A DNA stretch of 64,000 bases from Priestia megaterium (GTDB taxonomy: Bacteria > Bacillota > Bacilli > Bacillales > Bacillaceae_H): contig NZ_CP023317.1 of NCBI RefSeq assembly GCF_009497655.1, forward strand, positions 4,183,501-4,247,500. Reading direction: 5' to 3'. The position numbers were made by a program, and so were the translations under genes. Below are positions 58,448-61,331 of this stretch, one piece after another. The number at the start of each line of letters is the position of its first letter. Positions within the stretch are counted from its first letter, which is position 1. Under the pieces are notes generated by a model. The model worked only from the letters and a program-made list of their open reading frames with translations. It was not told where the DNA came from and made no database searches.

Positions 58448-59569
58448 TTAAAGGCCGCATTTCAGCTGTGCACCACAGTTTGTACATGTGTTGCATCCGC
58501 CCATTTCCTCTACCGTTCCTTGACGGCAAACCGGACACGTATTACCTACTTCAGAACCGATTGTTACATCAGTTGAACGAATTTCATTAATTGTATCAAC
58601 TAACACAACGTGTGGTTTTGTTTCTTCTTTTGGCGCTTCAATTTCTTCATCAAACGTATTTTCTTCTGCTTTTAGCGTTAAGACTTGTGCATCACGGCTT
58701 CCGTCTACGTACACCGTACCGCCTTTTGCTCCGCCTTTATACAGACGCTCGTACACTTTTTGAACTTGCTCTACCGTGTAACCACGAGGAGCGTTTACTG
58801 TTTTACTAATTGAGCTATCAATCCAGCGCTGAATCACACATTGCACGTCCGCGTGAGCTTGTGGTGCAAGTTCCATAGCTGAAATGAACCATTCAGGAAG
58901 ATTGTTTGGATCTGCTTCTGGATGCTGATCTAAATACTCTTGAACGATATCAGCTTTCACTTCAATAAACTTACCTAAACGACCGCTTCGGAAGTATGAG
59001 AATGAGAAATAAGGTTCAAGACCCGTTGATACTCCAACCATCGTTCCAGTACTGCCTGTTGGCGCTACTGTTAATAAATGAGAGTTTCGAATACCGTGCT
59101 CTTTAATGTTTTCACGAATATCTTCAGGCATTTTTTTCATGAAGCCTGTATTTGTGAATGCTTCACGTAAAGAAGCCGTTTCAGCATCTGTTTCGCCCAC
59201 TAAGAACGGGAAGCTTCCTTTTTCTTTTCCAAGCTCTACAGACGCGCGGTAAGCCGTCGTGGCAATTGTTTCAAACACTTTATCTACTAACTCATTGCCT
59301 TTGTCAGAGCCGTATTCTGTTTCACAATAAATAAGAAGATCGTGAAGACCCATTACACCAAGACCAACGCGGCGTTCGCCAAGCGCTTGCTTTTGGTTTT
59401 CTTCTAAGAAATAAGGAGTTGCATCAATAACGTTATCTTGCATTCTAACGCCCGTTTCAACCGTTTGACGTAGCTTTTCAAAGTTAACTGTTTTTGTTTC
59501 TTTATCTGCCATTTGCGCTAAGTTAACAGCAGCTAAGTTACAAACAGAGAATGGTGCAAGTGGTTGTTC
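58448..59569 (-). CDS. nrdJ: Adenosylcobalamin-dependent ribonucleotide reductase NrdJ, exon 2
   Basis: 3' exon, 373 residues. It begins with GAA CAA CCA (EQPLAPFSVCNLAAVNL), which continues NPCG of exon 1. So Glu of the NPCGE radical loop is the first codon, and the cysteine of SVCNL (redox pair) follows. The C-terminus has CPVCRQGTVEEMGGCNTCTNCG and a final CGL, which is a zinc-ribbon and redox-active cysteine tail. A TTG at 59572 could open this frame alone, but the protein would lack the N-terminal half. It is treated as part of a spliced gene. Confidence 0.92.
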   Translation of the reverse strand, partial: EQPLAPFSVCNLAAVNLAQMADKETKTVNFEKLRQTVETGVRMQDNVIDATPYFLEENQKQALGERRVGLGVMGLHDLLIYCETEYGSDKGNELVDKVFETIATTAYRASVELGKEKGSFPFLVGETDAETASLREAFTNTGFMKKMPEDIRENIKEHGIRNSHLLTVAPTGSTGTMVGVSTGLEPYFSFSYFRSGRLGKFIEVKADIVQEYLDQHPEADPNNLPEWFISAMELAPQAHADVQCVIQRWIDSSISKTVNAPRGYTVEQVQKVYERLYKGGAKGGTVYVDGSRDAQVLTLKAEENTFDEEIEAPKEETKPHVVLVDTINEIRSTDVTIGSEVGNTCPVCRQGTVEEMGGCNTCTNCGAQLKCGL

Positions 59570-59854
59570 CAAATTTGTTATCGTAAAGGCTTTTTATCCT
59601 CTACCTCTTACGCTTCATATTTACGTAAGTTCAGCATACGTTTTCGTTACAATTATTCAGCCATTTCTCTCAAGTACTTTTTCAAAGCTTTAAAATTGTA
59701 ACGTTGCGGCCTCGTGGAAGCATTATAGTCTGTTATACAGGATCAGCTTCTATGCGTTGCCCCTGACTAAACCTTTACGTTTAGCCTTCGGTTCAGATTC
59801 CCATCTCAGGGTTCCTGCTTTATTCCGCAATGTTTTACATGAGGCAAACTATTC
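59570..59854 (-). ncRNA. Self-splicing group I intron in nrdJ, no ORF, 285 nt
   Basis: The exon ends in T and the intron in G, as for group I. P1: exon CATGTGGT (59855-59862) pairs with intron GCCTCATG (59838-59845), with G-U at the splice site. P10: intron GTTT (59846-59849) pairs with exon-2 GAAC. P3: TTGCGG with CCGCAA. P4: CAGG with TCTG. P5: CCC with GGG. P6 hairpin CTAAAC/GTTTAG. P7: GCATA in GGCAACGCATAG pairs with TATGC in GTATGCTGAAC. P7.1: GAAGC/GCTTC. P8: perfect 10-bp CGTTACAATT/AATTGTAACG. P9: CTTACG/CGTAAG. The P7.1 stem between P7 and P3' suggests subgroup IA. No homing endonuclease is encoded. Confidence 0.92.
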
Positions 59855-61291
59855 ACCACATGGATTCGTTGCAACAACGTGCTGACCATATGCTTGAGCA
59901 TTTGTCATGTCATTGGCATTGTCGAAGAAGAAAATGCCTGGTTCAGCTGAGTACGTTGCACAAATATTAATTAAGTTCCATAGCTCTTTTGCACGGATAG
60001 TACGGTACGTACGAACTTTGTTTCCTTGTTTTGCCCACTCGCGCACGTCGCCTACTTCGTGCCAGTTTTCATTGTAGTTAGCCATTTCTTCTTTTGAATA
60101 GCTTTCTACGTCTGGGAAGCGAAGTTCGTATTCACCGTCGTTTTCAACAGCATCCATAAAATCTTTTGTTAAGCATACAGAAATGTTTGCTCCTGTTAAA
60201 AACTCTGAGTTATGAACGCTGTACGTTCCGCCAGTTTGCAGCTTTTCTTCTGCATCTTTAATGATTTTTTCATTAAATCCACCAAGACCAGGAATTTGTT
60301 TATAGTTAATGATTCCTTGGTACATTGCTTCTTCAGACTCTGTTAGCGGCGTGAACTTCAATTTATCTTGCGCGTGCTTTTTAATCATTTCGTCATTTGT
60401 GTTTTCAATTAAGAAACGTAAAATGCGAGGGTTTTGCATTTTAGAAATAATAAACTCTACAATGTCAGGATGCCAGTCGGCAAGCATGATCATTTGAGCC
60501 CCACGACGCGACCCACCTTGCTCAACAAGATGCGTCAGTTTAGCAATATCATCTAACCATGAAACCGAACCAGATGATTTGCCGTTTACACCGCGAGCCA
60601 GCGTGTTGCGCGGGCGAAGAGTTGAACCATTCGTTCCAACACCGCCTCCGCGGCTCATGATTTCCATTACTTGTTTGCGGTGTTCTGAAATACCTTCACG
60701 TGAATCTTTTACATAAGGCATTACGTAACAGTTAAAGTACGTTACGTCCGTGTCAGCACCTGCACCGTAAAGAACGCGGCCAGCGGGTACAAAGTTTAGC
60801 TGAACAAGCTCTTGATAGAACTTTTCAAACCACTCTTTGCGCTTTTCTTCTGTTTTTTCCACAGAAGCTAATCCTGTTGCATTACGTTTTGCAATTTGCT
60901 CATAGAAGACCTCTAGAGGTTTTTCAATGACATCTAAAGAACGAGTAATTAACCCATTTTCTGCTTCTTCAGGTGATAAAGCTCCTCTAAACTCATCTTC
61001 TACCTTGACAACAGCGGTTTTTTGCTCAAAATTAATGCTTTCCACATAGCCAAGTCCTCGTGCTGGAAATTTTGGGTCTTCCTTTACAGTTAGAACAACA
61101 AAATCTCCTTCTGATAACGTTAATTTTTCCGTATCTTTAAACGCATAGCGGTCTAACATTACCAATCTTGAAACACCTTTATGAGTTAACTTCATATCCG
61201 GTGTAATCGGATGTACTTGCGGAAAGCGTTCAATATCTGAATTGAGCTTTTCAACATTCATATTCACTTTTTGATTTAACAAAACAGTCAT
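59855..61291 (-). CDS. nrdJ: Adenosylcobalamin-dependent ribonucleotide reductase NrdJ, exon 1
   Basis: Class II reductase that makes deoxyribonucleotides with an AdoCbl radical and needs no oxygen. Exon 1 encodes 479 residues. NFVPAGRVLYGAGADTDVTYFNCYVMP carries the first redox Cys, and SRGGGVGTNGSTLRPRNTLARGVNGKSSGSVSW is the conserved core. It ends in VVATNPCG, the radical-site loop. Without splicing, translation stops at a TAG one codon later. The start ATG at 61291 follows AAGGAG by 8 nt. With exon 2 the protein has 852 residues, normal for NrdJ. Its cofactor need links it to mutAB. Confidence 0.93.
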
Positions 61292-61331
61292 TCTCACAAC
61301 TCCTTACCTATCGAACATCTATAAATTTATT

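Follow-up and report, generated by a model that had tools for sequence, protein, structure and literature searches.

Group I introns in ribonucleotide reductase (RNR) genes are well known, and splicing in two steps is established for the group I family. The P7 helix holds the guanosine cofactor, its G-C pair being the guanosine site, and is one of the best conserved elements of these introns. The stems P7.1 and P7.2 are a feature of the IA subgroups. The closest described systems include the introns of the Staphylococcus phage Twort, which we take to belong to subgroup IA2, and introns in flagellin genes of thermophilic Bacillus, reportedly described by Hayakawa and Ishizuka.

According to the accessible parts of the literature, recA, nrdE and flagellin group I introns are known in Bacillus (PMC3984707), RNR is, among the nucleotide-metabolism genes of phages, the most frequent target of group I introns (PMC3653736), and RNRdb had over 100 curated group I introns (PMC2795772). 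The available portions of two further papers state that a single Rfam model fails to cover the diversity of group I subgroups, and that the Bastillevirinae introns form nine clades, some of them within IA3 and IA1 (PMC11878797, PMC6125680).

The nrdJ insertion and its anatomy

The window, the whole stretch of 64,000 nucleotides of Priestia megaterium DNA that was analysed, carries on its minus strand the gene nrdJ (61297 to 58448), whose product is a vitamin B12-dependent (class II) RNR. The gene is interrupted by 285 nt (59570-59854, minus strand) between Gly481 and Glu482, within the active-site motif NPCG^EQPL. The 5' exon (59855-61297, minus strand) encodes residues 1-481 and ends in NPCG; the 3' exon (58448-59569, minus strand) encodes residues 482-854 and starts with EQPL. 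The upstream frame terminates in ...NPCGE* because the insertion starts with GAA TAG, so that its second codon is an in-frame stop. Deletion of the 285 nt yields an 854-aa NrdJ without internal stop, and the two halves match adjoining positions (3-480 and 481-858) of NF005991, the profile of vitamin B12-dependent RNR. The original prediction had given these coordinates, this strand and the early TAG correctly, and its description of the intron as ORF-less also held. The junction that it had proposed, GGT|GAA, is the placement that gives a U before the intron and a G as its last base. The family model R1 (see below) scores the insertion at 258.2 bits, a value to be read in the light of the window intron being one of the 23 sequences from which R1 was made.

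Splicing at this position had been called essential for enzyme activity, and NrdJ of full length would indeed depend on it. A second RNR large-subunit frame, of 760 aa, is present in the genome (310.7 bits with a class Ib model, below the cut-off of that model), so a need of the cell for it does not follow.

All of the helices that had been drawn by eye (P1, P3 to P9, P7.1 and P10) could be located on the minus strand, and P6a, P7.2 and P9.1 were found as well. P1 consists of the exon strand CATGTGGT (59855-59862), which provides the U at the 5' splice site, and the internal guide sequence GCCTCATG (59838-59845), with 7 of 8 positions paired and a U.G at the site. The intron strand of P10, GTTT (59846-59849), forms 4 bp with the GAAC at 59566-59569 in the 3' exon. 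The 5' strand of P3 (59825-59830) has its partner at 59704-59709, P4 (59814-59817/59794-59797) and P5 (59809-59811/59800-59802) form a stem at 59794-59817, and P6 and P6a occupy 59762-59791. P7 is made of GCATA (59751-59755) and TATGC (59634-59638), confirming that it reads GCAUA/UAUGC in the RNA and not GACUA/UAGUC. The P7.1-P7.2 stem (59717-59750), present between P7 and P3' in the structure of 30 introns described below, is followed by P8 (59645-59703), which has 10 bp and a 39-nt loop (59655-59693) that holds an ORF in relatives. P9 (59607-59629), P9.1 (59583-59604) and the terminal G (omega G, 59570) complete the intron.

The free fold of the window intron has a z score of -2.72, with 1 of 200 shuffles equally or more stable. 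The minimum-energy fold recovers P4, P5, P6a, P7.1, P7.2, P8, P9 and P9.1 unaided; P3 is absent from it. Alignment of the window intron to the family model flagged no broken pair, P1, P7 and P10 being outside that model and paired in the structure written on the window sequence.

This anatomy fits the standard two-step splicing of group I introns, from which we infer the catalysis and the order of its steps. An exogenous G bound in P7 would attack after GGU, whose U pairs with the guide G in P1. Once released, the 5' exon would stay bound through P1, be positioned by P10 and attack after the terminal G, and the joining of GGU to GAA would restore NPCGEQPL. At codon 2, the in-frame UAG may halt ribosomes before the core, so that the ribozyme would stay untranslated; in-frame stops early in introns are viewed as a possible folding aid in the accessible part of an earlier paper (PMC3984707). 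The nrdJ insertion is almost certainly a group I intron, predicted to remove itself from the mRNA by two guanosine-dependent transesterifications.

Homologous introns at the same nrdJ site

Introns at the same site were cut out of 46 genomes and 3 plasmids. All 49 lie between residues 481 and 482, follow GGT and have G as their last base, and in 49/49 the U at the 5' splice site is paired to the guide G of P1. Their lengths range from 238 to 1234 nt (31 below 400 nt, 3 of 400-1000 nt and 15 of at least 1000 nt) and fall into the three classes modulo 3 with 15, 19 and 15 introns; every one of them has an in-frame stop within its first 17 codons. The Gly codon is GGT in 49/49 interrupted genes versus 43/118 uninterrupted sites, the latter being the first 118 listed among 297 matching genomes. 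Exon and guide covary: exon CCGTGTGGT occurs with guide ...CACG in 44/44 cases and exon CCATGTGGT with guide ...CATG in 5/5. P10 has at least 3 of its 4 pairs in only 45 of the 49 introns.

Alignment A1 comprises the 30 ORF-less introns shorter than 320 nt; one intron of 379 nt and the 18 longer ones were left out. A structure of 71 pairs is paired in 97.0% of the cells, versus 82.3% for shuffles and 32.5-40.2% for slides, a comparison that favours the structure over the slides because it was written on the window sequence, itself among the 30. We consider the changes on both sides of a pair, found in 42 of the 71 pairs (covariation score 0.381 vs 0.129), to be a stronger point than the percentage of paired cells versus slides. 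Such changes occur in 3 of 6 pairs in P3, 4 of 7 in P4-P5, 6 of 8 in P6a, 5 of 5 in P7.1, 2 of 4 in P7.2, 4 of 6 in P9 and 7 of 7 in P9.1; in P3 and P9.1, 100% of the cells are paired. The P7 sequence is invariant in all 30 introns and speaks neither for nor against the structure within this set.

The upstream exon frame is open in 48 of the 49 genes (over up to 600 nt), with G047 as the single exception, and the downstream frame in 45 (over up to 900 nt). The four downstream stops (G014, G338, G067 and G140) are at residues 654-666, and the protein match breaks or ends just before, at residues 651-653, consistent with another insertion at this place. In relatives (L021, L022, L025, L026, L027 and others) the match to the nrdJ protein is likewise broken around residues 264-275 and 653. 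Several of these gaps contain introns recognized by RF00028, the Rfam group I model (Intron_gpI), so it seems that introns have targeted nrdJ at multiple sites. The Priestia megaterium plasmid pFDU301A (L075) carries an nrdJ with an intron at the window site. A second group I intron lies at 2134-2474, with a score below gathering (40.4 bits), and a cobalamin riboswitch at 1116-1248 (70.3 bits) lies upstream.

The distribution of the intron is patchy. A DNA search gave matches, part of them outside nrdJ, in 10/61 and 64/397 genomes and in plasmids. A junction pattern, which demands TGTGGT, is present in 49 of 397 genomes of the order. Forty-six of these are the source genomes of the cut-out introns; G296 has a BLAST match too, and G258 and G268 are known from the pattern alone. 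A second match in G270 is probably due to chance; as a control, the pattern read backwards gave 9 matches in the 397 genomes, which indicates the chance background. The uninterrupted nrdJ site was found in 297/397 genomes of the order, and within the genus the site is interrupted in 2/10 and uninterrupted in 8/10 genomes. A stricter pattern matched 118 stretches of named genome contigs, and the 80 matches listed belong mostly to Bacillaceae and relatives (Neobacillus, Sporosarcina, Anoxybacillus, Lysinibacillus, Paenibacillus and others). Among these 80, a single record bears an actinobacterial name, an Arthrobacter contig (L113), which may reflect contamination or inter-phylum transfer.

For 48 of the 49 introns, the mean distance between intron cores is 0.187, versus 0.294 and 0.278 for the two exons. 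The nearest relative of the window intron (distance 0.121) comes from another genus, whereas the nearest relative of its exons (0.169) comes from its own genus (G005), whose intron is at a distance of 0.229. Intron and exon distances agree with r of 0.25 (reached in 38 of 999 permutations) and 0.43 (0 of 999), the exons with each other at 0.56. The closer introns, the weaker intron-exon agreement and the cross-genus nearest intron favour horizontal spread between Bacillales at this site, although a constrained, slowly changing ribozyme core could be an alternative source of the low intron distances.

The Rfam model, the family model R1 and P7 variation

The original prediction had named a covariance search with RF00028 as a check and an absent match as the first half of what would speak against it. 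RF00028 gave no match to the window intron, neither at the gathering score nor at E up to 10, and no Rfam family matches the intron. The genome search with RF00028, which scored 86 of 473 first-look candidates, did not report it either. The same search that reported the Twort introns, used as positive controls, reported none of the class introns in 9 class sources (0/9), and at E up to 1 none of 7 loci with variant P7 was reported. Because this search finds the Twort introns, we attribute the miss to incomplete coverage of this class by the model and not to a failure of the structure. The absence of a match as a refutation of group I identity was set aside, as RF00028 works on the Twort introns and on introns elsewhere in three of the same nrdJ loci (L021, L027 and L075).

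P7 of the Twort introns is CAACGACTA...TAGTC, versus CAACGCATA...TATGC in the window; two adjacent pairs differ, and the first G-C is kept. The family model R1 was made from 23 introns and contains no P7 pairs. It gave 97 matches in 80 viral loci, which were taken from the matches listed for a class pattern holding GCATA and were kept out of the P7 count. That count uses R1 matches at E up to 1e-15, of which there were 95 in 93 sources; patterns avoiding P7 had supplied 89 of these sources. The sources are the window, L029, L030, L078, and 68 of 73 and 21 of 56 new loci from two such patterns (at least 73 and at least 56 new loci among the matches listed); five of the 73 were excluded because the match was near the end of the stretch or the stretch was short. 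The two patterns sit in other conserved parts of the intron, so the sample leans to near relatives.

P7 was GCATA/TATGC in 61 of the 95 matches, including the window, GCGTA/TACGC in 19 and GAGTA/TACTC in 2, with GACTA/TAGTC, GGTCA/TGACC and GCTTA/TAAGC found once each; in the remaining matches it was unpaired (1) or had no letters on the 5' side (9). Five non-canonical sequences thus occur beside the canonical one, giving six in all. On the 85 distinct rows, 99.5% of the P7 cells pair versus 92.6% for shuffles, and three of the five pairs have changed on both sides. The first G-C, which is the guanosine-site pair, and the last A-U are invariant, each being present in 76/76 rows with letters on both sides. 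With P7 slid by -2, 70.3% of the cells were paired, with a covariation score of 0.190 vs 0.172 and no both-sided change. The earlier claim of a paired change that keeps the helix agrees with this covariation among R1 matches.

Two introns tie the class to known group I introns. A flagellin intron (L030/L046, P7 GGUCA/UGACC) scores 64.4 bits by RF00028 and 78 by R1 at overlapping places, and the intron in L380 (P7 GACTA) scores 93.9 bits by R1 and 49.1 by RF00028, just under the gathering score of 50. An RF00028 stretch of 36.1 bits also overlaps the R1 match in L505 (TAGTC). R1 finds neither the Twort introns nor 10 other RF00028-type loci that were tried, and the class is therefore far from those. 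In a small number of cases the P7 change goes together with the misses of RF00028, which suggests it as a main cause of this blind spot; L030, with a non-canonical P7 and yet found by RF00028, is a counter-case, the single exception found among the variant-P7 members. Overall divergence must also contribute, because R1 does not find the Twort introns. Two more group I introns in the genome of the window (G000:C1:1083856-1084635; L032 and L044; 87.9 and 76.4 bits by RF00028) have the canonical P7 CAACGACTA and adjoin a reading frame that is flagellin-like by eye.

Group I identity, as originally proposed, is strongly supported by comparative evidence: the same-site homologues, the exon-guide covariation, covariation in most core helices, P7 in the wider set and the two bridging introns, through which the class is homologous to RF00028 introns. 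A structured RNA insertion of another type, such as a different self-cleaving or protein-dependent intron, would agree with the absence of any Rfam family match, but it is scarcely credible beside P1 with its U.G, the P3/P7 pseudoknot, P4-P6, P8, P9, the terminal G and P10, which make up the group I set, and beside bridging members that RF00028 itself detects. It is also very unlikely that the insertion is a group I intron that has decayed and lost its ability to splice, with nrdJ as a split pseudogene and another RNR serving the cell. The missing ORF of the window copy and the second RNR large-subunit frame of the genome would agree with such a scenario; against this, both nrdJ exon frames are intact, the family-model alignment contains no broken pair (P1, P7 and P10, outside the model, are paired in the window), and the exon frames are open in most of the 49 homologues.

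By its site, the splicing group I intron that we prefer is a new member; the P7 class to which it belongs probably represents a new variant, the namelessness of the class not being proved. A partial literature search that covered few subscription papers returned nothing on this nrdJ site or P7 class, and the accessible parts of papers naming both group I introns and nrdJ held no nrdJ intron of this kind. The claim of an undescribed element therefore holds, within that search, for the site and the P7 class, but not for group I introns in RNR genes, which are well known. We cautiously favour the view that the class is a large unnamed group I subgroup found on many phage contigs as well as on Bacillales chromosomes and plasmids, that compensatory changes have repeatedly swapped its P7 pairs beside the guanosine-binding G-C, and that Rfam is blind to its variant-P7 members, so that many 'split' phage and bacterial genes hide it. 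There is a real possibility, if one we lean against, that a GISSD subgroup beyond RF00028 (e.g. IA1 or IA3) already covers this P7 class and that only the host site is new, which would be compatible with a splicing group I intron in nrdJ. The accessible parts of the papers on the subgroup limits of Rfam, with Bastillevirinae clades partly inside IA3 and IA1, point in this direction (PMC11878797, PMC6125680), whereas the literature search, which did not extend to subgroup models and supplements, found neither this P7 nor a Bacillaceae nrdJ intron.

If the class is such a subgroup, natural variation would show which P7 pairs guanosine binding tolerates. With three of five pairs covarying and the first G-C and last A-U fixed, the P7 series allows a direct test of what the guanosine site can tolerate. 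Because RF00028 missed the variant-P7 members tried, L046 excepted, such introns may escape annotation and make their host genes look broken. In one plasmid record, for example, the annotation of the RNR CDS stops about 50 nt into the intron.

P8-loop reading frames and comparison with known systems

An intact ORF of 309-311 aa starting with MNRGY is present in the P8 loop of 9 of the 14 introns of at least 1,100 nt; in L027 and L054 there are open frames of about this size that begin differently. The nine ORFs share invariant E19, P49-D50, E65 and K67, from which we infer a putative PD-(D/E)xK nuclease-like protein. Searches with this protein gave only a sub-threshold NUMOD3 match in Pfam, nothing useful in NCBIfam and no match among PDB sequences; the matches in PHROGs were weak, the best (E 9.9e-07) being to a nameless family and another (E 1.5e-06, residues 122-219) to an HNH endonuclease family. 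An AlphaFold2 model from the nine sequences reached a pLDDT of 77.0 and a pTM of 0.42. Its best Foldseek match had an E of 0.046, and no match reached 0.001 or lower; the top matches include several restriction-endonuclease-like proteins. A 903-nt nrdJ intron (L082, G184) holds a different ORF with helix-turn-helix repeats, and therefore different ORFs entered introns at this site.

The window copy, with no ORF in its 285 nt, lacks an intron-borne endonuclease, and for this reason mobility of its own is not supported. It most likely represents the ORF-less form in a lineage in which longer relatives have the nuclease-like ORF and which has probably spread among Bacillales at this one site, perhaps by homing. 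The nrdJ introns form a same-site series with and without ORF for the study of homing gain and loss. A reading of the window P8 loop as a relic of the nuclease gene (...ALKKYLREMAE*) was rejected, being by eye unlike the ends of the ORFs in relatives. A 22-nt identity of the loop (59655-59693) with a frame of another genome that is pckA-like by eye is probably chance; a 25-nt piece of the same stretch occurs once in the window's own genome at up to 3 mismatches, as the intron itself.

The Twort introns resemble the window intron in the R and S neighbourhood (CAACG..UAG and CUGAAC) and in the group I core, but differ in having P7 GACUA/UAGUC and in being found by RF00028 and missed by R1. Flagellin introns are represented by L030/L046 from a relative's genome, which both models find and which serves as a bridge to the window class; it has P7 GGUCA/UGACC and another host gene, and may be of the kind published for thermophilic Bacillus.

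As far as the accessible parts of the papers describe them, the nrdE, nrdF and recA introns of Bacillus and phage SPbeta share RNR hosts and phage links with the introns studied here, and the Twort nrdE introns have sites near conserved residues, as does the nrdJ intron (PMC3984707, PMC3653736). By these descriptions they are set apart by their hosts: nrdE and nrdF encode class I RNR, whereas the window intron interrupts class II nrdJ at NPCG^E. The Bastillevirinae introns are, in the available part of their description, mostly IA-like phage introns said to go beyond current subgroups, with P7 rarely predicted (PMC11878797). By this description they resemble the window class, from which they differ in having been detected with RFAM/GISSD models (PMC11878797).
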